DNA from: Aurantiochytrium sp. KH105 | Taxonomy: Eukaryota > Sar > Bigyra > Thraustochytrida > Thraustochytriidae | Length of the DNA stretch: 54,304 nt | Direction: 5' to 3' | Assembly: GCA_003116975.1 (NCBI GenBank) | Contig: BGKB01000255.1 | Span: 1-54,304, forward strand | In this document: positions 6,511 through 33,086 of the stretch, in pieces | How the letters are laid out: each line of letters begins with the position of its first letter | Position numbering within the stretch: position 1 is the stretch's first letter | Program-made: the position numbers and the translations under genes | Notes under the pieces: generated by a model | The model's database searches: none | Told to the model about the DNA's origin: nothing | What the model saw: only the letters and a program-made list of their open reading frames with translations

Positions 6511-7458
6511 ATGAAGGCCGCGCAGGCGCTCCTGGCCGTGGTCGTGGCCGCCCTCGCGTGCGCGACGCAGGGCTTGTCGGCGGAGGAGCAGAGCGCTCTG
6601 GGCGTCGCCGGTAAGTGCAACTTTAAGTGCCCTGCGCACTCGAAGCAAAAGTCCAAGGTCGAGTGCTGCAACAACATCTACGACTGCAAGTGCGACAAGG
6701 GCTACAAGCGCCGTCCGCACAAGGGCACCTGCGTCCCAGATGGCAACAAGCCCACGGCTCCGCCCGTCAGGTGCCCTGGCGGCATTAAGAAGAAAGAGTG
6801 CTGCGTCGGCGATGCGTGCTACAACAAGCATGTCTCTCTCATGCAGCAGAGCGAGACCGAGCAGCGGCCCGATTACTTTGTGCAGCTTGCCGTCGGAGAC
6901 GACGATGATCTCATTGACGACTTGTGCCCCGAGGTGATCGAGGCGGGTGATGCCGAGGTCAATGATGATGATGATGACGAAGATGAGGAGGATGATGTGA
7001 TTGCCGAGAGCGAGATCTTTCCGTTTGACGAGCTCTTCCTCGAAACGGACGAAGAGGTGGACTCCGGCATGTCTCTGCGCGCGAGCGTCATGGAGTTTCT
7101 TGAAGAGGACGCCGCAGGCTGCTCTAACAACATCATTTGTGCAAAGGGCACCAAGCCGTGCGTCAAGAACTCGTGCCCCAAGGACCAGCAGAAAGACTGC
7201 TGCTGCAAGTGTAAAAACGGCGTGATGAAGAGCAACGGCAGGTGCATTTGCCCCGCAAAGCCTACGGCCGCACCCACGCCCGAGCCGAAGCAATGCAAGA
7301 ACAAGAACTGCCCCAAGGCCTACTCCAAGCCGTACTTGGTCAAGTCCAGCAACAAGTGCAAGTGCAAGTGCAAGAAGGGCTACCAGGTCATGGACGGCGA
7401 GTGCAAGCCGAAGAAGTGCTTTTACAAGACGATCTGCAAGAAGGAAGCGGTAGCTTAA
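6511..7458 (+). CDS. Secreted cysteine-rich polyampholyte protein CR1
   Basis: The product is 315 aa. Residues 1-23 are a clear signal peptide (basic start, Ala/Val/Leu core), with cleavage likely after Gly-Leu-Ser. The mature chain has an N-terminal Lys-rich module (residues 36-103) with 11 Cys, an Asp/Glu-rich linker (~129-202) carrying one extra Cys (C139), and a C-terminal Lys-rich module (204-309) with 18 Cys, making 30 mature cysteines. Proline hinges separate the sub-modules. A submodule C-x-C-x2-G-x(n)-G-x-C recurs three times and resembles the C-terminal half of an EGF repeat, but I do not recognise the whole as any named family. A hydrophobic segment, SLRASVMEFL (188-197), sits inside the acidic linker and is conserved in all paralogs. 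It is the first of five tandem copies, closest to CR3. It is secreted by inference; function is unknown (matrix, scale or adhesive protein are possibilities). Confidence 0.85.
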   Translation: MKAAQALLAVVVAALACATQGLSAEEQSALGVAGKCNFKCPAHSKQKSKVECCNNIYDCKCDKGYKRRPHKGTCVPDGNKPTAPPVRCPGGIKKKECCVGDACYNKHVSLMQQSETEQRPDYFVQLAVGDDDDLIDDLCPEVIEAGDAEVNDDDDDEDEEDDVIAESEIFPFDELFLETDEEVDSGMSLRASVMEFLEEDAAGCSNNIICAKGTKPCVKNSCPKDQQKDCCCKCKNGVMKSNGRCICPAKPTAAPTPEPKQCKNKNCPKAYSKPYLVKSSNKCKCKCKKGYQVMDGECKPKKCFYKTICKKEAVA

Positions 7459-8759
7459 GTGAAGCGCGACTCGTCACAGGACCGCGCCGAAGGACTGACT
7501 GCCCCAGAGCGTCTCCTCATTCTAACTAGCTAAACAGCAAGAATATTTCAAGTCTCAGCTCTTTCTACATCTACCGACCACAGAACGCGCCTCCATCCCG
7601 CGTGCGCGCACAGACAGACAGACAGACGCCCGCGCGTCTCCCCCTGCGACCACCACTGCCGCCGGCGACCTCACAGCCTTCCCTGCCTTGCCTTGCCTTG
7701 CCTTGCCCGGCCGGTACTGGATCTCTTCCTTCCGGCTCTCAGCTCCCGCCCGCGCGCTTGCTTGCCTGGGCGCCTGGCCGCCTCGCCGCCGCCAGCGAGT
7801 GGCCAGTGGCAGCTGGCTGGCCTGCTGCCCGGCCGGCCACTGCCCGCCGCCGCTGGCCGCCGCTGCGGGCCCCTCGGCTCCGCCCTCCGCGCGGTCGCGG
7901 CGCCTGTCGCAGCCGCCCCGTCGCCTGTCGGCCACGGCGCGGGCCCCTCCAGCGCCGCATGCCTGCCGCCGCCAGGCCGGGGCGCCAGGCCCGCGCTCCG
8001 TGCCGCCGCCTCTCCTCGCCTCGCCGCGGCACGGCGGAGGGCCGCGACCCCATCGCGAGGGCGGGCGGGCGCGGCTGGCTGGCTGGCTGGCTGGCGGGCT
8101 GGCGGGCGGGCGGGCTGGCGGGCGCAGACGCGGCGGCGGCGAGGAGAGCTGGCCGAGCGAGGAGAGCCGAGCGAGAGAGGCGAGACAGAGGCAAAGATCT
8201 TTTCGAAGTCAGGCTGGGAAGGGAGGAAGGAAGGGAGGAAGGAAGCGGGGGAAGAGGGAGGAAGCGACGGCGAGCAGGCAGGCAGGACGCGCCCCGCAAA
8301 AGACGCACGCAGCGCTGGCCGCGGCTTCGGTGAATAAGTGGTGAATGAAGAATGCATGACAGGAGTAGGCCTAAATGGATGGCGGATGAAGGGGCGACAG
8401 TGAATGTGCGGGGACTACGTGTCGGCGGCGGCGGAGACGGGCGACGAAGAGGCCGCGTCCCTAGCTCGGTCTGAGGGGACACACGCTGCGGGCACAGAGG
8501 ACGACGCGGAGCGCGCGCGAAGATCCACGCCCCGCTGGGCCGGCAGCCTCGAGTGCTGCAGCGCGGTGCGGTACTATACTACGACATGCATGCATACACA
8601 CCGTATATACAAGGCGCGGAAAAGCGAAGCAGGGCAGAGGCCAGACCAGGGCAGGCAGCAGACAGGCAAATCCCGAACAGCGCGAGCGAGCGAGCAAGCA
8701 AGCAAGCGCAAGGAGGAAGGAGAAGAAGAACTACAAGGAGAACAACAACAAGAACAAGC
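7459..8759. other. Spacer between CR1 and CR2 with low-complexity DNA
   Basis: No supported gene. The first ~70 bp resembles the CR3 3' flank. Simple repeats include (ACAG)n near 7608-7626, (CCTTG)n at 7681-7707, a GGCT/GGGC tract at 8068-8130 and GGAAG units at 8218-8255. A TATA-like CGTATATAC lies at 8602-8610, about 150 bp before the CR2 start. Overlapping long frames on both strands result from the absence of AT-rich stops. Confidence 0.6.
8602..8612 (+). promoter_or_regulatory. TATA-like element upstream of CR2
   Basis: TATATA at 8604-8609 sits in otherwise GC-rich DNA, 151 bp upstream of the CR2 ATG and just after a CATGCATGCAT stretch at 8585-8595. No comparable element was seen at the same distance from CR1, so this is tentative. 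Confidence 0.3.
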
Positions 8760-9659
8760 ATGAAGGCCGCCCAGGCACTCCTGGCGGTGGTCGTCGCCGC
8801 CCTCGCGTGCGCCACGCAGGGCTTGTCGATGGAGGAGCAGAGCGCTCTGGGTGTCGCCGGCACGTGCAACTTCAACTGCCCTGCGCACTCGAAGCAAAAG
8901 TCCAAGGTCGAGTGCTGCAACAACATCTACGACTGCAAGTGCGACAAGGGCTACAAGCGCCGCCCGCATCAGGGCACCTGCGTCAAGGACGAGACCCCAG
9001 AAAAGCCCACGGCTCCGCCCGTCAGGTGCCCTGGTGGCACGAAGAAGAAGAAGTGCTGCACGGGCGATGCGTGCTACGACAAGGTTGTCACAATGATGCA
9101 GCTGGGCTCGCGTGAGGAGGTTGATGATCTCCTCGATGACGCGAGCCCCGAGGTGGTCGAGGCGGGTGATGCCGAACTCGACGAGGACGACGAGGACGAG
9201 GACGGTGATGTCATCGGCGAGACCGAGATCTACCCGTACGACGAGCTCCTTCTCGAGATGGAACAAGAGGTGGACTCCGGCATGTCTCTTCGCGCGAGCG
9301 TCATGGACTTTCTCGAAGAGGACGCCGCAGGCTGCTCCAACAACATCATTTGTGCAAAGGGCACTAAGCCGTGCGTCAAGAACTCGTGCCCCAAGGACCA
9401 GCAGAAAGACTGCTGCTGCAAGTGCAAGGGTGGCGTGATGAAGAGCAGCGGCAGGTGCACTTGCCCCGAGAAGCCCACGGCCCCGCCCACGGCCCCGCCC
9501 AAACAATGCAAGAAGAAGAACTGCCCCAAGGCCTACTCCAAGCCGTACTTGATCAAGTCCAGCAACACATGCTCGTGCAAGTGCAAGAAGGGCTACGAGA
9601 TCAGGGATGGCGAGTGCAAGCCGAAGGAGTGCTTTGTCAAGTCGATCTGCCTCCAGTAA
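8760..9659 (+). CDS. Secreted cysteine-rich polyampholyte protein CR2
   Basis: The product is 299 aa, starting at the ATG at 8760, where homology to CR1 begins; the frame is open further upstream but that part is low complexity. It has the same plan as CR1: signal peptide (1-23), 11-Cys Lys-rich N-module, acidic linker, 18-Cys C-module. The linker is about 15 residues shorter and lacks the extra linker cysteine of CR1 and CR3, leaving 29 cysteines, an odd number that implies a free thiol or an intermolecular disulfide. The conserved SLRASVMDFLEE segment is present. The proline hinge of the C-module is changed to repeated Thr-Ala-Pro-Pro. The tail ends soon after the last Cys, without the Lys-Glu-Ala-Val-Ala end of CR1 and CR3. 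The family is unknown and secretion is inferred. Confidence 0.85.
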   Translation: MKAAQALLAVVVAALACATQGLSMEEQSALGVAGTCNFNCPAHSKQKSKVECCNNIYDCKCDKGYKRRPHQGTCVKDETPEKPTAPPVRCPGGTKKKKCCTGDACYDKVVTMMQLGSREEVDDLLDDASPEVVEAGDAELDEDDEDEDGDVIGETEIYPYDELLLEMEQEVDSGMSLRASVMDFLEEDAAGCSNNIICAKGTKPCVKNSCPKDQQKDCCCKCKGGVMKSSGRCTCPEKPTAPPTAPPKQCKKKNCPKAYSKPYLIKSSNTCSCKCKKGYEIRDGECKPKECFVKSICLQ

Positions 9660-10673
9660 AACGAGTAGGTCTGACCGTTCTCTTTTTACTATGCACTGAC
9701 CGCATCCGGCGTGAGAGCCTCTAACAAACATAAGAAAGTCACTTTACGCAAATGTTCAATTCGACTATCGTTGCCTCATAAGAAATAACTGCTGCCGCAA
9801 CTATCTACCTACTACGCCTAGGCTCAGATGAGATCGTAGCTCTCACCTCAACAACCTTTTTCAAGCGCAAACCACAAGTTTGGGTGCGACGGGTTGCTCA
9901 CGGCTCATCATAAGGGCAGCAATCACATAATTCCTTCCAAGGCCCGAGTCGAAGCAGCTCTCTGAAGTAGGCATCAATAACTCGTCGCACAAGAACAAGT
10001 CGACAACGAAGGCTTGCACGGCCGTGCCGCCAGAGATTCGCGGGCGCCAGGGATTCGCGGCAGCCAGGTGGCTGGCGCGCGTCTGCAAGGAAAGCCAAAG
10101 CAAGCCATGGCAAGCCAAAGCAAGCCAAGGCAAGCCAAAGCAAGCCAAGGCAAGCCAAAGCAAGCCAAGGCAAGCCAAAGCAAGCCAAGGCAAGCCAAAG
10201 CAAGCCAAGGCAAGCCAAGCAAGACGGCACGAAGACTCGGATGGGCGTCGCGGGCCTCGCCGTTATATGTAGGTCACGTCTAGCCCTAGCTTAGCCAGCT
10301 ATCTTCGTAGGTGTACTGACTGCGGGAATAGGAGAGAAGAGGAAAGAACTGGGAAAGGGGGAGTCTGTGGTTGACTGCGGGAAGCTTGGAGACTGGAGCC
10401 GCGGGCACGGAGGTGCCACAGTGGGGCAGGAAGATAAAGATCCGGACAGAAAGGGCGTGGCTGCGGCCCGCCCGCTTGCAGCCGTCGCCCAACGGCGGCT
10501 GCGTAGACGCGGCAGCCGGTCGGTCGCGGGACGGGCAAGGCAGGCAGACGCGAAACAGGCGCGAGCGAGCAGCGGCAGCGGCAGCGGCAGCAGCGGCGGC
10601 AGCGGCAGACGAAGCAGCAGCAGCGAGAGCAGCGAGAGCAGCACGGGCTCAGGGAAAAAAAGAGGCGAGCAAG
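9660..10673. other. Spacer between CR2 and CR3
   Basis: No supported gene. It contains the 20-bp tandem repeat at 10101-10220, an A/T-containing stretch at 9720-9850 and, just before CR3, (GCAGCG)n-like DNA (10560-10650). Leucine/alanine-rich frames on the minus strand over 9861-10230 are translations of the repeat. Confidence 0.6.
10101..10220. repeat. Tandem repeat of alternating decamers CAAGCCAAAG / CAAGCCAAGG
   Basis: Twelve consecutive decamers alternate to make a 20-bp higher-order unit, about six copies, with only a few mismatches at the edges. A related CCAAG tract occurs at 19436-19470, and its reverse-complement theme (CCTTG)n at 7681-7707. Confidence 0.9.
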
Positions 10674-11624
10674 ATGAAGTCCGTCCGGATGCTCCTGGCC
10701 GTGGCCGTGGCCGCCCTCGCGTGCATGGCGCAGGGCTTGTCGGCGGAGGAGCAGAGCGCCCTGGGCGTCGCCGGTACGTGCAACTTCAACTGCCCTGCGC
10801 ACTCGAAGCAAAAGTCCAAGGTCGAGTGCTGCAACAACATCTACGACTGCAAGTGCGACAAGGGCTACAAGCGCCGTCCGCACAAGGGCATCTGCATCAA
10901 GGATGATCCCGAAGAAAAGCCCACGGCCCCGCCCGTCAGGTGCCCTGGCGGCATCAAGAAGAAGGAGTGCTGCGTCGGCGATGCGTGCTACAACAAGGTT
11001 GTCTCTCTCATGCAGCAGAGCGAGACCGAGCAGCGGCCCGATTACTTTGTGCAGCTTGCCGTCGGTGACGACGATGATCTCATTGACGACTTGTGCCCCG
11101 AGGTGATCGAGGCGGGTGATGCCGAGGTCGACGATGATGATGACGAAGACGAGGAGGATGATGTGATTGCCGAGAGCGAGATCTTCCCGTTCGACGAGCT
11201 CTTTCTCGAAACGGACGAAACGATGGACTCGGGCGTGTCTCTTCGCGCGAGCATCATGGACTTTCTTGAAGAGGACGCCGCAGGCTGCTCTAACAACATC
11301 ATTTGTGCAAAGGGCACCAAGCCGTGCGTCAAGGACTCGTGCCCCAAGAACCAACAGACTGATTGCTGCTGCAAGTGCAAGGGCGGCGTGATGAAGAGCA
11401 GCGGCAGGTGCAATTGCCCCGCAAAGCCTACGGCCGCACCTACGCCCGAGCCGAAGCAATGCAAGAAGAAGAACTGCCCCAAGCCGTACTCCAAGCCGTA
11501 CTTGGTCAAGTCCATCAACAAGTGCAAGTGCAAGTGCAAGAAGGGCTACCAGGTCATGGACGGCGAGTGCAAGCCGAAAAAGTGCTTTTACAAGACGATC
11601 TGCAAGAAGGAAGCGGTAGCTTAA
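10674..11624 (+). CDS. Secreted cysteine-rich polyampholyte protein CR3
   Basis: The product is 316 aa, starting at the ATG at 10674 where paralog homology begins. It has a signal peptide (1-23), 11-Cys N-module, acidic linker with the extra cysteine (30 mature Cys in total, as in CR1), the conserved SLRASIMDFLEE segment and an 18-Cys C-module. Its last ~35 residues and much of its linker are identical to CR1. The first ~60 bp after the stop also align with the CR1 3' flank, so CR1 and CR3 were duplicated, or converted, recently and including flanks. It differs from CR1 by small substitutions in the signal peptide and hinge. The family is unrecognised. Confidence 0.85.
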   Translation: MKSVRMLLAVAVAALACMAQGLSAEEQSALGVAGTCNFNCPAHSKQKSKVECCNNIYDCKCDKGYKRRPHKGICIKDDPEEKPTAPPVRCPGGIKKKECCVGDACYNKVVSLMQQSETEQRPDYFVQLAVGDDDDLIDDLCPEVIEAGDAEVDDDDDEDEEDDVIAESEIFPFDELFLETDETMDSGVSLRASIMDFLEEDAAGCSNNIICAKGTKPCVKDSCPKNQQTDCCCKCKGGVMKSSGRCNCPAKPTAAPTPEPKQCKKKNCPKPYSKPYLVKSINKCKCKCKKGYQVMDGECKPKKCFYKTICKKEAVA

Positions 11625-12722
11625 ATGAAGCACGACTCGTCGCAGGACTGCGCTGCGAAGCGTCTCCTATCCTAAAAAACAAAGATTGTCTCCTTTCGCA
11701 TCCATTCATCCATCTACCTCGTCCGTTCATCTATATTTTGTTCGACTGTCGGTCATACTTTCTTTCCTACGGCTTCAACTTTCTTTTCCAAAGCTTGAGA
11801 CGTCTGCCAGTCAGCAGAGCAGCACGCAAATGGGAACAGGACGTCATTTCGACAGGTTCTACACCATCCGGATTCACTGTCAGAAAGAGGAAAAGGGAAA
11901 CTGAGCGGTGGTAATGGGTCGAGGCCCGGCTGTCTATCTGCCAGCCTGCCTGGCTGTCTATCTGCCAGCCTGCCTGGCTGTCTATCTGCCAGCCTGCCCT
12001 CCCTGCATGCATGCCTGCATGCATGCATGGCCACCGCCGGCGGCAGCCGCGTGCTGCCTGCGCAGGCCACGCAGCGTCCGCGCTATGCCGCGTCGCCCGT
12101 GCTCCTCCCCTTTTTCCAGCGCACCAGGCGGCAGCGGTCGTGCGCAAAGAGCAGCTGGCCGGAGGGTTCAAGTTGGTCTCATAAAAAGGAAGACGAGCGG
12201 GAGATGAGAGCCCGGTCGGGTCGGACGCCAGACTCGCCCCAGCGACCGCGGCACCAGGCTCGCAGGCAGGCAGGCACAGGCAGGCAGGCAGGCAAAGGTG
12301 GCCACGCGGAAAGGCCGCAAGGCGCGAGGCCTGAGCTGCCGCCACCGCCAGTGGTCGGCAGTCGGAGTTGCGCAAACGAAGAGACTGGAAAAGAATCCGC
12401 AGCCGTAAAAGATCTATCTGGACGTAAGGACACCGGCCACAGCCACTGGCACTGACGTTTGCAGAGGGGAGGAGGGGGAGAAAACCGGCACGGGTGTGAA
12501 AGGGAGGAGAGAGGGGAAAGAAAGACGCCTCCAACGCGCGCGGCGCAGGCACGGCGGCAAGGCGCGGCAGGCGGTTTGGCGGCACAGCTCGAACCGCGAA
12601 GGGACGGGCGCGTGGGTAGGCAGCGAGACAAGCTGCGCAGGCAGGCAGGGAAAGCGCCGCACGGGCAGGCGCGGGCAGACAGAAGCGAGTGGGGAAAGAG
12701 AGTGCGAGCGAGCGAAGAGACG
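11625..12722. other. Spacer between CR3 and CR4
   Basis: No supported gene. It holds a 24-bp tandem repeat (11928-11999), a CATGCATG-rich tract (12002-12030), CAGG/GCAG repeats (12256-12297) and a CATAAAAAGG TATA-like stretch at 12179-12188. Other frames in the region are repeat-derived. Confidence 0.55.
11928..11999. repeat. 24-bp tandem repeat, three copies
   Basis: The unit GGCTGTCTATCTGCCAGCCT plus GCCT is repeated three times head to tail, nearly perfectly. It lies in the CR3-CR4 spacer. Confidence 0.9.
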
Positions 12723-13729
12723 ATGCGCGGATGTAGCGGCGCCATGCTGGGACTGGCCGTGGCCGCGGTCGCGTGCCTGACGCAGGGCGCGAGCGGGACC
12801 GAGATCATGACGACGACGACGATGGCGCTCGAGGATATGTCTAGGCCTATGCCACCCCCAAAACCAAGAAGAAGTGCCGCTTCGATTGCCCGCGTCACTC
12901 CAAGGTGAAGTGGAAGGATGAGTGCTGCAACAGTATCTACGACTGCAAGTGCGACAAAGGCTACAAACGCGTTGCCCATAAGAACAAGTGCGTCAAGATC
13001 GATGACGATCAGGAAGTCCCCGAGAAGGATCCCATCAAGTGCCCCGGCGGCAGGAAAAAGAGCAAGTGCTGCGAGAACGAGAAGTGCTACAAGAAGAAGT
13101 TTGGCGTTTGGAATTTCACTGTTGATGACGATGAGGGCCTCGTCGACGATGACGAGGACCTTGTCGATGACGATACCCCCGGAGTCGATAAGGATAGCGA
13201 TGACGATGACGAGGATGACATCGAAGTGGACGGTGATGACGAGGGGGATATCATTGAGGAAGATGACGAGCTCTTTCCCATTGACGAACTGCTCGAGGAG
13301 TCCGAGGAAGAAGAAACTGGAGTTTCTCTTCGCGCCAGCATCATGGACTTTCTCGAACAAGACCAAACTGTCTCGTGCCCTCGTTCCATTGTCTGCGCTA
13401 AGGGCACCAAACCGTGCCATAAGGATGGCTGCCCTCTTAACCAGGCAAAGGACTGCTGCTGCAAGTGTAAGAGAGGCAGAATGAAGGACAATGGCAAGTG
13501 CTGGTGCCCTCCGCCGAAGCCAACACCCGCTCCTACAAAGGCACCCAAAGAGTGCGCGGGCTACACCAAGTGCAAGAAAAAGCCGAACAGCAAGCGTTAC
13601 TTCCACAAGGGTAAGGGCAAGTGCATGTGCAAGTGCAAAAAGGGATTCAAAAAGGAGAACGGGGAGTGCAAGCCCAAGCTGTGCTTTTACAAGACCAAGT
13701 GCCTCAAGACCGAAGTACTTACAAAGTAA
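12723..13729 (+). pseudogene. CR4: cysteine-rich paralog interrupted by a one-base frameshift
   Basis: The ATG at 12723 opens a signal peptide and a short Thr/Met/Pro stretch; the frame then leaves homology in the C5A4 run at 12855-12863. From about 12867 a different frame carries the rest: 11-Cys N-module, a very acidic linker, the conserved SLRASIMDFLEQ segment and the 18-Cys C-module, ending at 13729. One base is missing relative to an intact frame of about 335 codons. Everything downstream is well preserved, with all 29 expected cysteines and no stops, so either the break is very recent or it is a homopolymer sequencing error. It groups with CR5 by the Glu-Glu-Glu-Thr-Gly-Val linker end and the Val-Ala-His-Lys loop. 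A GT-AG intron here would be only ~30 bp, which seems too short. Confidence 0.75.
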
Positions 13730-14263
13730 ATACGCGAGAAAGTGATGGCTTGGCCGTCTCCAAAGCTTGGGCTGTATCTTTGCCCATTCCGAGATCACTT
13801 TCTTTTCAAAAGTTTACAATCAATTTCCTTTCACGATGATCATCGCTTGGGAATCCTCGTTGTCTGACTTCATTCATCACATTATTGTTAAAGCTTGGCC
13901 TAGTCTTGATCCATCAGCAGGTCTGGTGGAAGGCTGCTTTACTACTAATGTCAAGAACTGATGCAAGTTCTGACGTTTTCTCAAGGTGGCCAAGGCTATT
14001 CACCCCAGCTCATTCGCTCGACGACAACATGAGCAAGTGGATTCCAATTTGGTTGCCAGTCTGCCTGTCTGCCAGTCTGCCTGCCCATACCATTCTGCTC
14101 GAGACGAGGCGTAATTTATGAGCGCTTCCGGCTTCCACCCTCAAAATTTTGCGATGCAGTCTTCCGGAACCGCGATGGAAGCGCCCTCAAATCAGCAAAA
14201 GGCTCGCGATCAACCAAGCAGGACATGGCACTGTCAGTGCGGGCCGCCTTTGCGCTCTCTCAC

Positions 14264-14271
14264 TATATAAA
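14264..14271 (+). promoter_or_regulatory. TATA box without an obvious downstream gene
   Basis: TATATAAA sits in a GC-rich setting and is the best TATA match noted in the window. The following ~380 bp is GC-rich and open but has no convincing ATG-started gene, so it may drive a non-coding or very short transcript, or be chance. Confidence 0.35.
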
Positions 14272-14922
14272 TCAGCCAGGCGCAGCCCGCGCAGTCAGCT
14301 CGCCGAGCGAAGCCACGGAAAGTGATTGCAAGGGAGCCTGGGCCCGTCGAGTGGCCGCTAAAAGCTCCGTGTCCGGCCGCTCTGACGACTCCAGGCGCGA
14401 AAGTTACGGAGTCTGGACAGAGGCGAGAGCCGGCGTCTCGTCTTGAGGGGGCGAAGACATCCCGGCGATCTTTGTCTCGTTGTGGGTGGCCGCCTCGCCG
14501 CACGCAGCTGCAGCTCGCAGTCGCGCGTGTCCTGTGCGAATGGCTGCGCGAGACCTGCGTAACCAGTCGAGACAAGTGCAAGCCAACTTGAGGGGCCGCG
14601 CGCACGGCCTGTGAATACAGAACCCGGCAAATCCAAGCCGAAGTAAATTAAATTGCTATACCGCATTTGAGGGACTACGAAAGGCGATATCGTCTCGTTT
14701 GCTCCATTCTTCGTTCATTTTTTCTTGAGCGTGATGCTTTTTACTTGAGCGTGATGAATCGGTAGCACCAGCATCAACTTCTTTTTCCTGCCATGCGTGG
14801 ACTGACTTCTTTGCGCCGTGGAAGGTGCTCTTCTTCTTTCGGCTTCTCTGCAGTGCTTGGCTCGAGCTGTCCGCGTTGCCGACGGAGGGCCGGCCGTGCA
14901 TCGCTGTCATCGAGACGGCAAG

Positions 14923-14954
<32 letters not shown>

Positions 14955-15235
14955 TATGCAAGCAGACGGACAGACCGGAGCTGCGGCCATTTCAAGACAA
15001 TATGACACGAACCGAGACAAGGCGAGATGAGGATCGCAGCTGAGTCAGGTCCCAACTTGAAGAGGATAGATACTTGCTTTCTTGCAGCATGCTCCAGATT
15101 TGCTCGCCAATCAGCCACCACCAGCCAACTAGGCAACCAGGTGCCCTTCTTCCCGCCTTGCCTGGTTTGCGCGTGCGTAGCGAGGATGGCCGCGGCTCTC
15201 GCTGTGATGTCGCGCTTATTAATGTTATAGTTGAA

Positions 15236-15240
15236 GCGAA

Positions 15241-15275
<35 letters not shown>

Positions 15276-15280
15276 GAAGA
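15236..15280. repeat. (GAAA)n microsatellite
   Basis: Roughly ten GAAA units followed by degenerate GGAAG. No gene is present here. Confidence 0.9.
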
Positions 15281-16237
15281 AGGCTCGCCTCGTTTTCTTT
15301 CCAGCAGAGCCAGGTGTTGGCTAAGGAGACTTCTGGCACGTGTCCCGGTTCGAAAAGATCGAGGATCGAGGCAAGATCGTCGCTTTCCCCTTCTCCTCCG
15401 GGCAGCCCCGCTCGCTGGCTGCCTCGCAGGCGGCTTCGGCTGCGCACGCGCGAGCGCAGAGCAGAGCAGAGCATAGAAGACCAGCTCGTGGCTGGCTGCG
15501 CTGCCGCCGCCGCTCGCCCATCCCGCCGCGCGGCCAGCTCGACGAAGAGGAGGAGCCTAGGTAGCTAGCTAGCTGCCACTGCTGCTAAGACGCTCGGCCC
15601 AGTGTAGACAGACGCACGCGGTGCTAAGGCCACGGAAAGAGAAGGCCGCGGTGCTTCCTCTGGACAGCCAGTCCGCGTCCACAGGGTAACGGCGCGTGCC
15701 TTTCCTTTCCTCTCCTTATTCTGCAGCCAGCTGCAGCTGCAGCAGCTTGGCCACGGTCACTGCCGCTGCGACAAATCTTTCATTCTCTCTCTCTCTCTCC
15801 CCTTTTCCCCTTCTCCTTTTCCCGTGCCTTTCCATCCCGAAGTTGTACATGCATACTACATGCACGCGCTGCAGCTGGCAGTGGCTGCCTGCCTGCGCTG
15901 GCCGCCTGCCGAGGCCGCTCGCCCTGCGCCGCGCTGCCTCCGCCTCCCTGCCTGCCTGCTTGCCTGCCTGCCTCGCTGCCTGCCTCCCTCGCTCCCTCGC
16001 TCCGGGCGCGGGCGACCGCGGGCGACCGCCGGGGCCGCCTGCGGCGGGAGAACGGCGCGGCAGAGCGGGGCGCGCGGCGCGTTGGCGCGCTGGCGCGTTG
16101 GCCGCAGCTAGGCCGGGCGAGCGGGACTTGAGGGGGAAGAGAGCAGCCAGCTGCAGCGAGGAGTAGGGCCTGGCCTAGGCGGACGGGTAGCAGTGGGATG
16201 GGATGTACGGGCAGGGAGGGAGGGAGGGAGGGTAGAT

Positions 16238-16264
16238 ATGCATGCATGCATGCATGCATGCATG
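16238..16264. repeat. (ATGC)n microsatellite
   Basis: About seven ATGC units form a self-complementary tract 110 bp upstream of the CR5 start. CATGCATG stretches also precede CR2 and CR4. Confidence 0.85.
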
Positions 16265-16376
16265 GTATCCAGGGCGAGCGAGCTGGCAGGGACCAAGAGG
16301 ACGCGGAAGCAAATCCGAAACAGGAGAGAGGAGGAGGAGAAGAAGAAGAGGATCAGAGGAGCGAAGAGGAGGAAAG

Positions 16377-17402
16377 ATGCGCGCCCCCCAGGTGCTGCTG
16401 GCGCTGGTCGTCGCGGCTCTCGCGTGCGCGACGCAGGGCCTGGAGACGGAGCTCGCGACCTTCGAGGAGGAGTTGCAGCTCAAGCGCTATCCCCCCAAGG
16501 ACGACGACGACGACTGGGACAAACCCAAACCCCCCGGGGGCAGACCCAGACCCCCCAAGCCCGACAAGAATCTGTGCTCCTTCAAGTGCCCCAAGTACTC
16601 CAAGGTCAAGAGCAAGGTCAACTGCTGCCACAATATCTACGACTGCCAGTGCAAGAAGGGCTACAGACGCGTAGCGCACAAGGGCATTTGCGTTCCGCGC
16701 ACAGAGAGGCCGGAGCCTACGACCAAGCCCGTGCGCTGTCCCTATGGCATCAAGAAGAAGAAGTGCTGCTGTGGCGATCCCTGCTACGATAAGAAGTTTG
16801 GCGGCGGCAAGGAAACCTTTCTGGAGGAACTCGATCTCGAATTTGATGACGACGACATTGTCGACGACAACAGCCCCGACGTTGAGAAGGACGAGGACGA
16901 CGATGACGACGATGACGATGATGAGGAGACTATTGAGGAGGGCGAGCTCGTCCCTTACGACGAGATGCTCGAGGAGTCCGAGGAGGAAGAAACTGGTGTT
17001 TCCCTTCGCGCCAGCATCATGGACTTTCTTCAGCAGGAGGACCAGGGCTGGTGCGGCCCCCACAGCATTGTCTGCGCCAAGGGCACCAAGCCGTGCTACA
17101 AGAATGATTGCCCTCGCAACCAGCATAAGGATTGCTGCTGCAAGTGCAAGGGTGGTCGGATGAAGTCGAACGGCAAGTGCCATTGCCCCGCCAAGCCCAC
17201 GCCCGCGCCCACGCCCGAGCCGAAGCAATGCAGGAAGCACCACTGCGAAGACAAGCCGAACACCCGCGTGTACCTCACCAAGAGCAACAAGTGCAAGTGC
17301 AAGTGCAAGAAGGGCTTCGAGAAGAAGTACGGCGAATGCAAGCCCAAGATGTGCTTCTACAAGACTTCGTGCAAGAAGGGAGACAAGCCCGTCTGGGACT
17401 AA
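16377..17402 (+). CDS. Secreted cysteine-rich polyampholyte protein CR5
   Basis: The product is 341 aa, the longest paralog, starting at the ATG at 16377 where homology begins. After the signal peptide (1-~22) it has a unique insert of about 45 residues rich in Glu, Asp, Pro and Lys before the first Cys. Then come the N-module, with 12 Cys because the usual Cys-Cys pair is Cys-Cys-Cys, the acidic linker with runs of Asp, the conserved SLRASIMDFLQQ segment and the invariant 18-Cys C-module, giving 30 cysteines. So CR5 reaches an even cysteine count by a different extra Cys from that in CR1 and CR3. It is closest to CR4. It is secreted by inference; the family is unrecognised. Confidence 0.85.
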   Translation: MRAPQVLLALVVAALACATQGLETELATFEEELQLKRYPPKDDDDDWDKPKPPGGRPRPPKPDKNLCSFKCPKYSKVKSKVNCCHNIYDCQCKKGYRRVAHKGICVPRTERPEPTTKPVRCPYGIKKKKCCCGDPCYDKKFGGGKETFLEELDLEFDDDDIVDDNSPDVEKDEDDDDDDDDDEETIEEGELVPYDEMLEESEEEETGVSLRASIMDFLQQEDQGWCGPHSIVCAKGTKPCYKNDCPRNQHKDCCCKCKGGRMKSNGKCHCPAKPTPAPTPEPKQCRKHHCEDKPNTRVYLTKSNKCKCKCKKGFEKKYGECKPKMCFYKTSCKKGDKPVWD

Positions 17403-20427: not shown

Positions 20428-23400
20428 ATGGAGCGCCTCGCCGGCAGGCCCGAGCCGGCCATGCGCGCAGGGAACGCCGGGGCGCGGCGCGAGGCGACTG
20501 CGGCGGGCGCCGCCGGGCGAGGCCGCGCCGGCGGCAGCGGAGACGGAGACGCAGACACAGCCGCAGGCGTCTTTCAAGTTGTTGTGCACGGAGATGTGAA
20601 CATCAACGGCGACATCACCAGCAACGATAAGAGCGCTGAGCTCGGTGTGCATGTGCAAAGCGCCCCAGATCTGCAGGAAGGAGATTATGGGCCGGGTGTA
20701 CGCTCGAACGCAAGTCAGAGGCCACTGCCAAGCATGCGTGGGACGCGGACGACCTGTGCAAATCCGAGACGCGGGCGCGACGAGGACGACGACGAGGACG
20801 AGGTGGAGGACGAGGAGGCCGCGGTTGCAGCAGCCGCGGAGATGACCGTCAAGCGCAAGACGCCCAGCGTGGGCCCAGCAGGCGCTGGCGCCTCCGCGCG
20901 GTCGCCCTGGAGGAGGACACCACGAGCCGAGGAGAGACTTGGGACCAAGCGCCAGAGAAAGCAACGGGCCTCCGCAGAAGACCTCGAAGCCCTCGTTCAA
21001 GACGCAGTCGAAAGAGACCGCAAGGCAAAGCTAAAGGCGCTGCGCACATGCGATGTCATCCTCAATCACACATTCGCGCACCATAGCAGCAACGATGACC
21101 GGGCCGCAGACGAAAAATTAGCCGCAGGCGAACATCGCCGCACCAACAGCGATGGCTCCGTGCCCAGCATGCTCGGGGGCTCCGACGAGCGGCACGATAA
21201 CGGTCGCGTGGAAGACTGCTGCTGCGGCGACGAAATCGAAGACCTCGACGAGGCCGAAACCATGGATTTGGGCGGCAACTCCCAGTATCGCCAACGTAAT
21301 CCCTTCTTCTTCCTCCAGACAGAGTCCGAAAACTCTCTCCATCTTGACGAACGCAAACGTGCAGGAACGAAGCGATCCCGATGGGGCATCGAGGTCCCTC
21401 TCGGACGCTTGCAAAAGCTTGCCGGAGCAGAACCGGGCATTCTGCGCAGCGTCGCAGACTTTTTGCAAGTTCAAGAGACCGTGCAGCTGACATCCGTGTG
21501 CCACGCCTTTCTTGCTGCACTTCAAGGTCAACCTCTCCGTCTCGATCAGCTTCAACGCGTCTTTGACGTCAAACAACTGGCGCAGTCAGCGCTCGCAGCA
21601 GCAGCAGCAGCAAGACCTCCGCTCCTCGCCGACAGCGGCGACAAACAGGACACGGGCGTGAAATTTTGCCACCTTCATCCCGACTGCGATGCCGAATTCG
21701 ACGACGAAGACAATGACATCGACGACGATGACGAGGAGGAACCCCATCCAGATGACGAAGAGATGATGCTCGTTGCGCCATCTGTACAGAGCAAGAACGG
21801 ATTTCATATTCAGGAATCCACCAGTCGACGCATGACGAACTGGACTATCACGGGTCTGCGTGTACGCCCGGGAGACAGAGAAGAAGAAAAAGAAGACGAA
21901 TTGAACCTCTGGGATCTCCTCGATAATTCAAAACTCGTCAGACTCATCATGACCGGCGATGTCGACGCCATCGACGCCAACCGCATGGCAAACTGCCACC
22001 GCCTCGAGTGCTTTGATGCGGGCGTCTCTTGCGGACACCTCGAAAATGCTCAGGTGCTGCGATCGCTCCCACGTCTCTCCCACTTGTACGTCCGCAACAC
22101 GCGCAATCTCGTCTCAGCAAACTTTGTTCCAGCCGGCAACAGTCTTGCAGAGCTCTCTTTGTACATGTGCAGGAACCTCGAAGACATTAGCGCACTCAGG
22201 GCATGCCCGAACCTCACTGTCCTTGATCTGGGTGGATGCCACCTCGTACGCAACGTTGACGCCCTCGCTGCATGCACCTCGCTCGAGAAGCTTTCAATTG
22301 CAGACTGTGCGCGCGTGCCCAGCATCGAACCCCTCCGTGATCATCCACGCCTCTTCCACCTCGACATTAGCGGATGTGCCCTTGCGCAGGACCTTTCTGC
22401 GTTGGACACACTACCGGCGCTCGCCAAGCTCAAACTCAAGCGCTGCGATGTGGTTGCCACCGAGCCCCTCTTAGGTAGCACCAACCCGGTCATCGCGCTC
22501 GAGGCGAAAAACAATATCCGAAACTACAAACTCGCGAGTGTCGACACCATTTTGCCGCAGCTCATTCGCAGAATCGATTCCGCGCAACCTCCCCTTTGCG
22601 CGAGAGTGCAGCGCGCGATCGAGGACACCCTCGACATTCTCTCTGCCTATGCCTTCCACGAGGGCCTGCACTCTTCCACCACACTGGCTACCAGTGGCAT
22701 TGTTCCCATCCTTTTGGGGCTCATTTCGAACCCTGATGCGACACCAATCTCCATGCGCCGCCTCGTCTTTCAAGTGGTTGCCCGTGTCTCTCAGACGCGC
22801 GAGGCGGTGCCGGATATGTCGCGCCACGGCGCAGGCGCAGCCGCCGCGCGCGAGCTTCACCGCGCGCTCTGCAAACCGCGCACGTATTCCAGTCAAGATC
22901 TCGACATTATGCAATACTGTGCCTCAATCGTTCTCTTTATCGCCGCCGTCCAGGGCGAACGCGAGCGCCTCGTCCAGGGCTCCCCCCATCTCATTGCCTG
23001 TCTTGTCCGCCTCGTTCAGATCGGACCGCCCGAAACCGTGGCCGAGGCCGCTGGCGCGTTGTGGAACCTCGCCGCGAGCCTCGAGATCGGCAGCGTCATC
23101 GCCGCCACCCCTGGCGCCATCGCTGCGCTTGCTGCCGTGCTTCAAACGGGAACCATCACCGCCAAGCTCCAAGCGTCCGGCGCCCTGCGCAATCTCGCCA
23201 TTCTCGACACCAACAAGGACATTCTCGCAAACAATGGAGTTCTCGAGCCCCTCATCAACATTGTCCGCGCCCGCGTCGTGGCCAACGCTACCGTCGCGCG
23301 AGAGCCGTCCCTAATGCACTCCCTCTCTGCGTTTTCCGAGGATGAGACAATGCTCGTCATCAAGGCCACAGCCACCCTGCGCATCCTCGCCACTCGCGAA

Positions 23401-24867
23401 TGCGTGCAACTGAGGGCGGGGGCGCTCGGCGCTGTGGCCGTCCTCGTCGGCCTTCTCTCGGACCGCGAAGCAATGCTCCGTCGTCAGACCTGCGGGGCGC
23501 TGCTCGCTCTCAGTTTCAACGCAAGCAACCGCGCGGCGCTTTTGAGCGCCAATGCTGTTCCGTACTTTATTCGCATTGTTGACGCCTCATCGAACGAGTC
23601 CATGGTCATTTCCGCTGCGGGCTGTCTATGGAATCTTGCCATGCATGCTGACATCGACAATGCAATCTTCCGCGACCCAAGCGCCATCCCAGCGCTGGTG
23701 CGTCGGCTGGATTCCACCAACCCAGAGGTTGTGTGCCGGGTTGCCGGCGCGATGCGCAGCCTTGCCTTTCTCGAGTTTCACAAGGAGCTTGTTGTCATGC
23801 ATGGCGGCGTCGATAAACTCGTGCGACACATCAATCTCCCGGCTACGAAAGCGCTCACGCAGGTCCTCTCGGCGCTTCGACTCGTTGCCAGCGGACCTGC
23901 GCAGACGCGTCTTGCCATCGTCCGCGCCGGGGCCATTCCGCGGCTTGCGCAAGTCGTCCAGCTTGGTACGGCAGAGACTGTCTACCTTGCGCTCAGCACG
24001 CTAGCCCATCTCGCGCCCGATCACGCTCAGCTCATTGTGAAACACTTGCCCGTGAGTCACCTCGTCGCGCTCTACTTTCAGGCCTCCAGCAATGCGTTGT
24101 CTCCCGCTGCAATGACCAGTCTTGGAGCCACTGCGTCAGTCATGTCTTCGGTTTCCGCGTCGCCAAGTCTCGTGCGTGAAGATGCTGGCTACATCCTGCA
24201 GCGGATAGCCATGCTCGGGCCTGCGCCCCATCAAATGCACTCCGACAGCTTAATTGTGGAGAATGCCATGACGCACGAGCACCTGAGCCGAGGTCTGCTG
24301 CCTCTTCGCAGAATTAGGGGCGTGCCAGGTGATGTGCAGACTGCGAACTCTTTTGATGGTACCATGCGCTTCTTCAGCTACGCCACTGTCGGCGCATTCG
24401 ATCGTTTCGTAAGCTCTGGCAAGGTCTTTTACGAAATTGAAATTGTCAAGGTTACCGATGCACCTTCTTTTGGGTGGGCATCGTGCCGCTTCGCCATGCA
24501 TCGAAACTATCTCTCCGACTACGGTCTTGGGTTCCCGTGCTCGAACCCAGCGCTTCAGGACAGTTGGGCTGTCGACGGTCAAAAGTGCCGAAGATGGCCA
24601 GGAGAGACACCCTTTGGTACCCAATGGACCTCAGGTGACGTCCTTACTGTTGCCGCAGACATTGACGCGGGCGAAATCTTTTTTGGCCTTAATGGTAGCT
24701 TTGCCGCTCCCATGGGCCTCGCCTTTTCCGGTGTGCGTGGGGCTTGCTCCGTTGGCATCACGCCTGCCATCTCGGCAAGTCAGGGAACTGTGGTGCGTGT
24801 CAATCTCGGTCACCAACCCATGCGATTTGGTGCGCCTGCGCCAGGCTTCGTTCCCTTTTGTACATAA
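20428..24867 (+). CDS. Large F-box-like / LRR / armadillo-repeat / SPRY protein
   Basis: The product is up to 1,479 aa. Order of parts: a low-complexity N-terminus with an acidic stretch and a basic (NLS-like) region (1-~220); an F-box-like helix pair near 325-362; Asp/Glu-rich segment (~420-450); AMN1-type leucine-rich repeats with the L-x-L-x-x-C pattern (~550-675); armadillo repeats (~737-1224), with the typical GA-I-P-x-L-V and A-A-G-A-L-W-N-L-A motifs; and a SPRY domain (~1294-1470). The F-box-like/LRR part suggests a substrate adaptor of an SCF-type ubiquitin ligase; ARM and SPRY are protein-binding modules. Other start codons (20461, 20841) are possible, since the first 220 residues are weakly conserved-looking. 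The domain combination is unusual; the function is inferred from modules only. Confidence 0.8.
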   Translation: MERLAGRPEPAMRAGNAGARREATAAGAAGRGRAGGSGDGDADTAAGVFQVVVHGDVNINGDITSNDKSAELGVHVQSAPDLQEGDYGPGVRSNASQRPLPSMRGTRTTCANPRRGRDEDDDEDEVEDEEAAVAAAAEMTVKRKTPSVGPAGAGASARSPWRRTPRAEERLGTKRQRKQRASAEDLEALVQDAVERDRKAKLKALRTCDVILNHTFAHHSSNDDRAADEKLAAGEHRRTNSDGSVPSMLGGSDERHDNGRVEDCCCGDEIEDLDEAETMDLGGNSQYRQRNPFFFLQTESENSLHLDERKRAGTKRSRWGIEVPLGRLQKLAGAEPGILRSVADFLQVQETVQLTSVCHAFLAALQGQPLRLDQLQRVFDVKQLAQSALAAAAAARPPLLADSGDKQDTGVKFCHLHPDCDAEFDDEDNDIDDDDEEEPHPDDEEMMLVAPSVQSKNGFHIQESTSRRMTNWTITGLRVRPGDREEEKEDELNLWDLLDNSKLVRLIMTGDVDAIDANRMANCHRLECFDAGVSCGHLENAQVLRSLPRLSHLYVRNTRNLVSANFVPAGNSLAELSLYMCRNLEDISALRACPNLTVLDLGGCHLVRNVDALAACTSLEKLSIADCARVPSIEPLRDHPRLFHLDISGCALAQDLSALDTLPALAKLKLKRCDVVATEPLLGSTNPVIALEAKNNIRNYKLASVDTILPQLIRRIDSAQPPLCARVQRAIEDTLDILSAYAFHEGLHSSTTLATSGIVPILLGLISNPDATPISMRRLVFQVVARVSQTREAVPDMSRHGAGAAAARELHRALCKPRTYSSQDLDIMQYCASIVLFIAAVQGERERLVQGSPHLIACLVRLVQIGPPETVAEAAGALWNLAASLEIGSVIAATPGAIAALAAVLQTGTITAKLQASGALRNLAILDTNKDILANNGVLEPLINIVRARVVANATVAREPSLMHSLSAFSEDETMLVIKATATLRILATRECVQLRAGALGAVAVLVGLLSDREAMLRRQTCGALLALSFNASNRAALLSANAVPYFIRIVDASSNESMVISAAGCLWNLAMHADIDNAIFRDPSAIPALVRRLDSTNPEVVCRVAGAMRSLAFLEFHKELVVMHGGVDKLVRHINLPATKALTQVLSALRLVASGPAQTRLAIVRAGAIPRLAQVVQLGTAETVYLALSTLAHLAPDHAQLIVKHLPVSHLVALYFQASSNALSPAAMTSLGATASVMSSVSASPSLVREDAGYILQRIAMLGPAPHQMHSDSLIVENAMTHEHLSRGLLPLRRIRGVPGDVQTANSFDGTMRFFSYATVGAFDRFVSSGKVFYEIEIVKVTDAPSFGWASCRFAMHRNYLSDYGLGFPCSNPALQDSWAVDGQKCRRWPGETPFGTQWTSGDVLTVAADIDAGEIFFGLNGSFAAPMGLAFSGVRGACSVGITPAISASQGTVVRVNLGHQPMRFGAPAPGFVPFCT

Positions 24868-30188: not shown

Positions 30189-33086
30189 ATGGGCGGCCAG
30201 GATGAACAAGAAGACGAGGGCAATGGGTTCCAGGAAGAGTGGTACATGGCTATCGACAAGGCCACGAACAAGCCGTACTACTATAATTCATCAGGAGATA
30301 TGTCGCAAACGCCGCCCCCAGGTTTTCGAAGACCCTCCGAACAAGAGCAACGACGTGTGGCTGCGCGCAAAACCAGCTGGTTCGGTCAAAGACCAAGCCT
30401 TAAGCTCGAACCCGATGAAGAAGAAGGCGGGTTTGCAGCCCAAATCTCTGACGTACGCGCTCGGGGCATGAGCATGGTCCAGCGACTTAATCCGTTCGCC
30501 CCCGAGCTGGGCATCGGTGAAAAACGCGGCACTGTCCTTCGCGCCCTGTACGGCCACGTGGCTCGATTCGAGGACGAGCTCACAGTTCGACCAGGGCAAA
30601 CACTCGTAGGCATCGAGGTCGTCGAAGGCGGCGCCTGGTGGCTTGCAGAGCTAAATGGAAAGCGTGGTCACATTCCAGCAAATTATGTCGAGGTCGTGGA
30701 GCGCGACAATCAGGGACGCGTCCAAAAGGATAGGGACTATGGTGCCTCGCCTTCGGGATGGTTTCAGGCGCAGGCGCAGGCTGCTCCCGATCGCCCGCCC
30801 AAGCCAGCCCGACTCGCCGCCAAGCAGGTTCCACGGGGTCTCAACGCTCAGCTCAAAGACGAGAAACGTGCTAGTAACAGCAACCCGATCAAATGGCTGT
30901 ACCTGTGCCATACGTGGGGCTATGCCTTTGCTATCTTTGCCATCGTCACGGGCGCTTTGGCATTTTTGTGGTATTCCGAGGCTTCAAAGGAGATTGGAAG
31001 CACGCGAAAGAAGCAGCTTCTTGGCACCGATCGTTCGTGGACGGCGCCTGCCGTCGTTGGCATTGGCGCTGCCTCGCTCGCCTTTGAATATGTCTTTGGC
31101 CTTCGACGTCACAACGGCGACGGGCTGCCAGAGGTTCCGTTACGGACAATCATGTATCTCGGCATGAGTGTGCCGTGCTTCACCAGCTACGCCACGATGA
31201 TTACTGGCTTGATTGGTTGCGTGACGGCTGCGCTCAACTTTGTTGCCTTTTACAACAACGAGGAAGGTTCTGGCAAGACGCAGCGATTCGTCCCCAAGGT
31301 TTCTTGGAACAAGATGCTCACCTGGACGTACACGGAGGGGCTCATTATGTTCGCCTTCGTCGCCATCAACGCGGGTCTCTTTGTTGCTCGCTACTATCTG
31401 GAGGAATCTTCGCGCCAGGAGTGCGAGCGCTCTACGCTCAACACAGAGTGCATTTCCGCCTTTGCGCCCTTTGCCAAGGCGTTTGGAACCTCGCTCGACT
31501 TTACATGCGCGCTTGTTTTCTTTCCTGTGCTCCGTGCCGCACTCAACCGCATCTCCAAGATCGAGGTTGCGCCTAACAAGACGCTGGCTGTCGTCATTCC
31601 CATCAAGAAGAGCATCGCCTTTCACAAAGTGATTGCGTACTCGATTATTATCGGGTCCTTGGGCCACGTAGGCTTTCATTTTTTCAACTTTGCCATCGCT
31701 CCGGGACCGTCCATCGATCGTTTTGGCGCCATTGCACTTTGGACAGGCGGCGCGGTCACCTTTGGCATGGTCATTGTTTTTTGCGCAGCTCACAGTTCGG
31801 TGCGTCGTTCCAACTTTGAGGCGTTCTGGTGGAGTCACCACGTTTTTCTTCTCGTGATTCCTCTTTTGCTGGCCCATGGACCCAAGGTGTGGTACCTTGG
31901 TGTCGTTGCTTTCCCTGCATACGCGCTTGACCGCATCATCCGCACGCGTCGCGTCTCGCACAAGTTTTACGTCGACGCCGTCAGCTACGTCCACCCGGTG
32001 CTCAAACTGCAATTCTTTCCTGAACGACTGGATCTCTTTAAATTCCAAGCGGGCCAGTTCTTGCACCTCATTGTGCCGTATGTCAGTGAGAATGAGAGCC
32101 ATCCATTCACCATTTCATCCTCGTGGGGCGATCTCGAGCGGGAAGGCTTTGTCAGCGTTCACATTCGTATCCAGGCTAAGGGTTCGTGGACATACAATGT
32201 CATGAAGTACTTTCGCCTTCTCGCGGGCGCTGGTGAACTAACTAGTGATGGCCGGCCAACCTCGTTTGAAAAGTTCTTTACTCATTTTGACAGCTCGGGC
32301 GTCGTGCAGCGCGGCCTGCACGTTGGTCCCGATGGCAAGCCGCTCATCCGCGTTGACGGTCCGCACTCGGCGCCTGCACAAGTGTACTCGGTGTACCAGG
32401 ATGTGATGGTGGTGGGCTCGGGTATCGGTCTCACGCCTGCTGCTGCGATCCTCTCGGCTGTCACAAAGTACAAGTGGCGCAAAGGATTCTCGCCCGAGAC
32501 GCTCCGTCTGTACTGGATTGTGCGTCACAACGAGGTTGAGAGTTTTGATTGGTTCGTCGAGACTTTGGTGACGGTGAGTCAACGCGTTCTCGCGGACCGT
32601 CGCGCCGGCGCGATCACCCAAAATCATCGACTGCAAATCAACATTTATGTCACCAGCGTTCCCTCAACCACGCAGGTGCGTCGTGTTACTGACCCTGGGG
32701 TCAGTCGTGGGCCTCCTCGTCCCTCGCGCCCTCCCAAAGGAGGCAGTTTTGACAACGTCGTCGACGAATACCTTGGCTTCGATGTCGCCTCTCTCAAGGC
32801 CTTGCTCAGCAAACCGACAGTCGCTGCGCGAGAGCAGGCAGACTTGCAGTTCTCTCACTACGGCGAGGTCCATGTTCCGAATCGTCAAGGTGATATTTGG
32901 GTCTGGAATGGTCGTCCAGATTGGGATAACATCTTCCAGGTCAACCGTGATTCGCGAGCAGAAGGTGTGCCTGAGATCGGCGTCACCTTTTGCGGTGCGC
33001 CTGGCGTCGCACGTGCGCTCAAGGACAGCTGCGGCCGCTACACGGGTCCGGAGTGCAGGTTCACGTTGAATCAGGAGGTCTTTTAA
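30189..33086 (+). CDS. NADPH oxidase with N-terminal WW-like and SH3 domains
   Basis: The product is 965 aa. A WW-like module (~16-46) keeps the first Trp and the Tyr-Tyr-Tyr-Asn block but has Thr where the second Trp is expected. An SH3 domain (~114-172) has the ALY, WW and P-x-N-Y-V signatures. Three extra hydrophobic segments (235-264, 283-305, 320-355) precede a six-helix NOX core (378-585). Haem ligands fit NOX spacing exactly: H479 and H493 (14 apart), H550 and H563 (13 apart). The FAD motif HPFT is at 638-641, NADPH glycines GSGIGLTP at 743-750, and the chain ends in Phe as in other NOX proteins. Role: one-electron transfer from NADPH across the membrane to oxygen, giving superoxide. 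No EF-hands, so it is not a DUOX or RBOH type. A ferric reductase is a less likely alternative. Confidence 0.9.
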   Translation: MGGQDEQEDEGNGFQEEWYMAIDKATNKPYYYNSSGDMSQTPPPGFRRPSEQEQRRVAARKTSWFGQRPSLKLEPDEEEGGFAAQISDVRARGMSMVQRLNPFAPELGIGEKRGTVLRALYGHVARFEDELTVRPGQTLVGIEVVEGGAWWLAELNGKRGHIPANYVEVVERDNQGRVQKDRDYGASPSGWFQAQAQAAPDRPPKPARLAAKQVPRGLNAQLKDEKRASNSNPIKWLYLCHTWGYAFAIFAIVTGALAFLWYSEASKEIGSTRKKQLLGTDRSWTAPAVVGIGAASLAFEYVFGLRRHNGDGLPEVPLRTIMYLGMSVPCFTSYATMITGLIGCVTAALNFVAFYNNEEGSGKTQRFVPKVSWNKMLTWTYTEGLIMFAFVAINAGLFVARYYLEESSRQECERSTLNTECISAFAPFAKAFGTSLDFTCALVFFPVLRAALNRISKIEVAPNKTLAVVIPIKKSIAFHKVIAYSIIIGSLGHVGFHFFNFAIAPGPSIDRFGAIALWTGGAVTFGMVIVFCAAHSSVRRSNFEAFWWSHHVFLLVIPLLLAHGPKVWYLGVVAFPAYALDRIIRTRRVSHKFYVDAVSYVHPVLKLQFFPERLDLFKFQAGQFLHLIVPYVSENESHPFTISSSWGDLEREGFVSVHIRIQAKGSWTYNVMKYFRLLAGAGELTSDGRPTSFEKFFTHFDSSGVVQRGLHVGPDGKPLIRVDGPHSAPAQVYSVYQDVMVVGSGIGLTPAAAILSAVTKYKWRKGFSPETLRLYWIVRHNEVESFDWFVETLVTVSQRVLADRRAGAITQNHRLQINIYVTSVPSTTQVRRVTDPGVSRGPPRPSRPPKGGSFDNVVDEYLGFDVASLKALLSKPTVAAREQADLQFSHYGEVHVPNRQGDIWVWNGRPDWDNIFQVNRDSRAEGVPEIGVTFCGAPGVARALKDSCGRYTGPECRFTLNQEVF

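Follow-up and report, generated by a model that had tools for sequence, protein, structure and literature searches.

A tandem array of five secreted-looking, charge-patterned proteins with probable EGF-like cysteine modules in the thraustochytrid Aurantiochytrium sp. KH105

What kind of protein is encoded by a tandem array of five cysteine-rich genes in Aurantiochytrium sp. KH105, and what might such proteins do at the surface of a thraustochytrid cell? To our knowledge, the proteins that build the walls, scales and ectoplasmic nets of thraustochytrids are mostly unknown. The accessible part of a 2025 proteome study of Aurantiochytrium limacinum presents 18 net/bothrosome candidates, none of them tested (PMC12221091). 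The array lies at positions 6511-17402 of contig BGKB01000255.1 (assembly GCA_003116975.1), of which a stretch of 54,304 nucleotides, referred to here as the window, was analysed. As suggested by our analysis, its genes encode soluble, secreted proteins in which probably epidermal growth factor (EGF)-like, Lys-rich modules flank a strongly acidic linker, and the array is under purifying selection. We tentatively regard the products as disulfide-locked surface or matrix proteins.

The open reading frame listing and its translation placed five homologous coding stretches, all on the + strand, within this interval: P1 (6511-7458, 315 residues), P2 (8760-9659, 299 residues), P3 (10674-11624, 316 residues), P4 (12723-13729, with a signal-peptide frame from 12723 and a body frame at 12854-13729, read as 291 residues) and P5 (16377-17402, 341 residues), which carries an additional D/P-rich stretch ahead of its first module. 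Their identity to P1 (P2 81%, P3 91%, P4 54%, P5 60%) bears out the tandem paralogues described in the initial annotation, and the Lys-rich N-terminal part with 11-12 cysteines (11 each in P1-P4, 12 in P5), followed by an Asp/Glu-rich linker, was likewise recovered in all five copies. The C-terminal part, taken there for one Lys-rich module, indeed holds 18 cysteines in every copy but divides into a pair of modules (M2 and M3) with one hairpin apiece; M2 aligns to M3, with none of 100 shuffles giving an equally good result. The order along the chain is M1, acidic linker, and then M2 and M3 joined by a Pro/Thr linker.

In P1, the signal-peptide-like segment (6511-6576, residues 1-22, its end set by eye, with similar segments in P2, P3 and P5) is followed on the same strand by M1 (6616-6732, residues 36-74), the short Cys tail of the N-terminal part (6772-6819, residues 88-103), the acidic linker (6832-7119, residues 108-203, the charge counts given below extending to residue 206), M2 (7120-7251, residues 204-247) and M3 (7294-7437, residues 262-309). 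Near the end of the linker stands the motif GMSLRASVMEFL (7066-7101, residues 186-197), in which G186, S188, L189, R190, A191, S192, M194, F196 and L197 (P1 numbering) are invariant across the five copies. The linkers of P1 and P3 contain one further cysteine each. Upstream of P3, at 10086-10225, lies an array of the 10-base units CAAGCCAAAG/CAAGCCAAGG.

A search of the genome (76 Mb, 367 contigs) showed that contig C78 carries the array once more, with the order unchanged; the copies of P1, P2, P3 and P5 are found there at 100134-101090, 102300-103199, 104103-105053 and 109568-110596, respectively. Since the two arrays are 86-93% identical in DNA across colinear aligned pieces longer than 1.1 kb, and tubulin and EF-Tu-type genes are likewise mostly paired in this genome, we take them to be two haplotypes, which provide ten sequences for comparison.

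The cysteine parts probably represent three divergent EGF-like modules, as judged from residue patterns and, for M3, from a predicted structure. Twenty-eight cysteine columns are invariant in all ten sequences. Each of these sequences contains three CxCxxG...C hairpins, against 0.06-0.09 in shuffles, and twice, in M1 and M3, the CxCxxG-aromatic...C hairpin that constitutes the PROSITE-type EGF pattern, for which 0.006 occurrences are expected per shuffled protein; the M2 hairpin has V or R where the aromatic residue is expected. A relaxed six-cysteine EGF-spacing pattern of our own design found frames over M1 and M2, putative EGF-like frameworks, in ten of ten sequences and none over M3, which fits this spacing by hand only with the last cysteine of M2 as its first. 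The modules also hold cysteines beyond the six of the EGF framework. An EGF-like fold was predicted for M3 only: the model of P5 M3 reached a predicted local distance difference test (pLDDT) score of 69-80 across ten-residue blocks 61-100 with four predicted strands, and Foldseek ranked Plasmodium MSP1-19 first (probability 0.97, E 0.41). The disulfides of the modules we infer. None of the EGF-type matches of the modules was statistically significant, and Pfam scans reported no EGF family, either for the five full-length proteins (to E 1) or for five module pieces (to E 10). A genome search with PF07974 yielded 53 canonical EGF_2 matches, both haplotypes counted, none of them at the array. As for a calcium-binding EGF type, the EGF pair of the LDL receptor was matched with an E of 0.8 across 19 profile positions.

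Along with the cysteines, the distribution of charge is maintained throughout the array. The N-terminal part holds 16-28 basic and 8-17 acidic residues per copy, the linker 31-43 acidic and 2-4 basic, and the C-terminal part 24-33 basic and 6-9 acidic, so that the basic-acidic-basic layout of the initial annotation is upheld: charge blockiness exceeds that of composition shuffles with z 14-21 in all ten sequences (P4 without its signal peptide). The mature chains of 277-319 residues, with a charged fraction of 0.32-0.43, have a net charge of only -1 to -8, and basic and acidic totals increase jointly, from 42-46/48-53 in P1-P3 to 62/63-66 in P4 and P5. In the four pairs formed by P1 or P2 with P4 or P5, identity is 39-46% in the linker vs 57-69% in the modules, and the same linkers still carry 31-43 acidic and 2-3 basic residues. 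Linker acidity is retained while the linker sequence drifts, which in five related copies amounts to a pattern.

The array is under purifying selection. Ratios of nonsynonymous to synonymous substitution (dN/dS), calculated with our own Nei-Gojobori script and for P4 on the body only, were 0.14, 0.05, 0.19, 0.17 and 0.27 between the alleles of P1-P5, and 0.19-0.46 among the seven paralogue pairs computed. The genes are also suggested to be well expressed, because their codon adaptation index (0.43, 0.47, 0.44, 0.38 and 0.46 for P1-P5) lies above that of seven other open reading frames in the window (0.14-0.23). The codon table was derived from a small reference set of three beta-tubulin frames and one EF1A frame, identified by sequence; as controls, tubulin and EF1A scored 0.74-0.76 with their own kind excluded, and three more genes 0.63 (EF-Tu type), 0.36 and 0.21. 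Furthermore, a patchwork of identity among P1-P3 in both haplotypes suggests gene conversion: in a 90-base block P1b and P3b show 0 differences and P1b and P2b 4, vs 13 between P1a and P1b and 8 between P3a and P3b.

A signal peptide had been annotated in all five proteins; it stands in frame with the body in P1, P2, P3 and P5, and in P4 the corresponding segment lies in another frame. The signal-peptide-like calls rest on Kyte-Doolittle hydropathy, the top 19-residue window at the N-terminal end reaching 1.8-2.0 in the four intact copies and 1.6 in the P4 segment. Past residue 30 the same window revealed no second hydrophobic stretch in any of the ten sequences (0.54 at most), and this combination suggests soluble, secreted proteins. 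In P4, the segment starting at ATG 12723 and the body are in different frames in both haplotypes, with different bases involved: the window has one base fewer than C78 within a C run, and C78 (around 106095-106200) has one base fewer than the window within the signal-peptide part. The candidates for this interruption are an assembly error in each haplotype, a recent independent loss and a small intron; the body is constrained, as given by its allelic dN/dS. The public Hondaea fermentalgiana gene model FCC1311_041062 seems to bypass the P4 stretch 12723-12875.

The family appears restricted to a single lineage. Protein searches, of limited sensitivity, returned four entries only: the H. fermentalgiana hypothetical proteins FCC1311_041052, FCC1311_041062 and FCC1311_041072, and P2 of the window itself. 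Hondaea is also a thraustochytrid of the Labyrinthulomycetes; by eye, P3 is very like FCC1311_041052, P4 resembles FCC1311_041062 and P5 FCC1311_041072, with a few residues differing. Pfam gave no family at its cut-off for whole proteins or module pieces, the sole PDB sequence match of P1 was to R-spondin Cys-rich repeats (E 0.41; E 6.6 with a five-sequence profile), and no strong match to a characterised family emerged. The claim that no named family has this plan therefore stands for the whole protein, although its modules seem to be variants of a type already known. Such restriction is unremarkable by itself, because secreted proteins outside orthologous groups are common in thraustochytrids, numbering 62-250 of the 252-330 predicted secreted proteins in six genomes, according to the available part of one report (PMC6050695).

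Searching the genome with a module uncovered one further locus in both haplotypes (E 0.02), whose 165-residue product combines an M1-type module with another Cys stretch (L035, C134:167865-168359, and its other-haplotype counterpart L038, C128:193954-194448). Both versions have a hydrophobic N-terminus, two modules and two CxCxxG hairpins, and both are devoid of an acidic linker. In hhalign, they matched the M1 profile with a probability of 92% over 60 columns at 32% identity, with 0 of 100 column shuffles equally good; their second module was not significantly like M2 (16 of 60 shuffles equal) or M3 (2 of 60). The reverse search retrieved only L035, L038 and a weak match to P4 (E 0.82). This is a separate, secreted-looking cysteine protein, related to M1 through its first module. 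A shorter untethered protein of this kind may have been the earlier form, with the acidic tether and a module gained later by the array proteins.

What such proteins do can be proposed only with caution, at somewhat less than even confidence: they may be disulfide-locked surface or matrix proteins whose cationic modules sit on anionic wall polymers. The thraustochytrid wall is described, in the accessible part of one source, as sulfated polysaccharide with scales as part of it (PMC11642839), and would suit Lys-rich modules as a partner. While the protein passes through the secretory pathway, its modules would fold and the acidic tether would offset their positive charge; outside the cell, the modules would hold sulfated polysaccharides of the wall, the scales or the ectoplasmic-net surface, and the presumably disordered tether would bind calcium or space and cross-link the modules, so that a cross-linked layer, at the surface or adhesive, would form. 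Tandem duplication would have expanded the array, perhaps from a short untethered secreted protein resembling L035/L038. The ligand, the location and the order of evolution are parts that we infer. A narrower version, namely a lineage-restricted structural family whose EGF-like modules became cationic beads strung on an anionic tether, with selection keeping the charges in balance, and which cross-links sulfated polysaccharide and calcium in a labyrinthulomycete wall, scale or ectoplasmic-net adhesive, is unlikely as a whole.

The same charge layout could also belong to a precursor, the linker being an anionic pro-piece excised to free cationic cysteine-rich antimicrobial or signalling peptides, as in defensin precursors, where an anionic pro-piece neutralises the cationic cysteine-rich peptide. 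The near balance of basic and acidic residues, the invariant single Arg in SLRAS directly ahead of the C-terminal modules, the KKK or KK immediately past the last N-part cysteine in P4 and P5, and a tandem arrangement bearing traces of gene conversion are all in keeping with it. Yet KR and RR are absent from the module-linker junctions of all five copies (the scan covered KR/RR, not KK), KK after the N-terminal part is missing in P1-P3, and the low allelic dN/dS speaks against diversifying selection, which makes a precursor improbable. If, instead, the modules were specific for a protein or sugar partner and the linker a mere spacer, the EGF-like hairpins, the predicted M3 fold and the canonical EGF_2 matches at other genomic sites would be accounted for; since a specific ligand should need neither blocky Lys enrichment nor overall charge balance, such a ligand or adhesin role seems unlikely.

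Two further possibilities take up single features of these proteins, and we consider each of them very unlikely. The Lys-flanked CxC, CC and CCC runs might hold soft metals as thiolates in the manner of a secreted metallothionein, and M2 of P1 does match Metallothio_6 weakly (E 0.0097, 16.8 bits, below the cut-off of 23). A signal peptide, however, leads into an oxidising compartment, and the CxCxxG[Y/F]...C hairpins and predicted M3 strands suit disulfides better than thiolates. The blockiness of charge at near-neutral total might alternatively, as put forward in the initial annotation, drive like molecules to condense into a coacervate through their opposite blocks; pure charge coacervation is less likely because seawater salt strongly screens charge.

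This charge-patterned, probably well-expressed and secreted-looking family comes from a culturable species and offers a concrete candidate for wall, scale or net construction; it might also serve as a model of how proteins assemble in salt water. Elsewhere in the window, the stretch 47251-48747 (-) has a weak galactose-3-O-sulfotransferase match (21.1 bits vs a cut-off of 27) and could be relevant to the sulfated wall polysaccharide. Other neighbours are a 1479-residue frame combining LRR, ARM and SPRY matches (20428-24867, +), a ferric-reductase/NADPH-oxidase-like protein fused to an SH3 domain (30189-33086, +) and a 2208-residue frame that matches Ion_trans in four stretches and also a PKD channel family (40036-46662, -), resembling a four-repeat cation channel.

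Among known systems, metallothioneins share with the array the Lys-flanked CxC and CC runs and the weak M2 match, and differ from it in the signal-peptide-like N-terminus and hairpin pattern of the array proteins. The likeness to R-spondin Cys-rich repeats is limited to the non-significant PDB match of P1. L035/L038 share with the array the N-terminus and the M1-type module, unlike it in their length, number of modules and missing linker. Proteins of the SPARC/osteonectin type are secreted matrix proteins combining an acidic calcium-binding part with a follistatin Cys module, and are like the array in joining an acidic stretch to Cys modules; with a SPARC chain at Foldseek rank 37 (E 5.0) and no sequence match, they serve as a lead only. 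The Plasmodium surface EGF-like proteins, the top fold matches of M3, (MSP1-19, Pfs25 and Pfs28) line up small Cys modules after a signal peptide, a plan like that of the array proteins. Pfs28 comprises four EGF-like domains, contains ten disulfides and is glycosylphosphatidylinositol (GPI)-anchored, as stated in the accessible part of its description (PMC9664031). Unlike Pfs28, the array proteins have no C-terminal hydrophobic stretch, and unlike the Plasmodium EGF-like proteins in general, to which they show no significant sequence match, they carry additional cysteines and, between modules, a long acidic tether.
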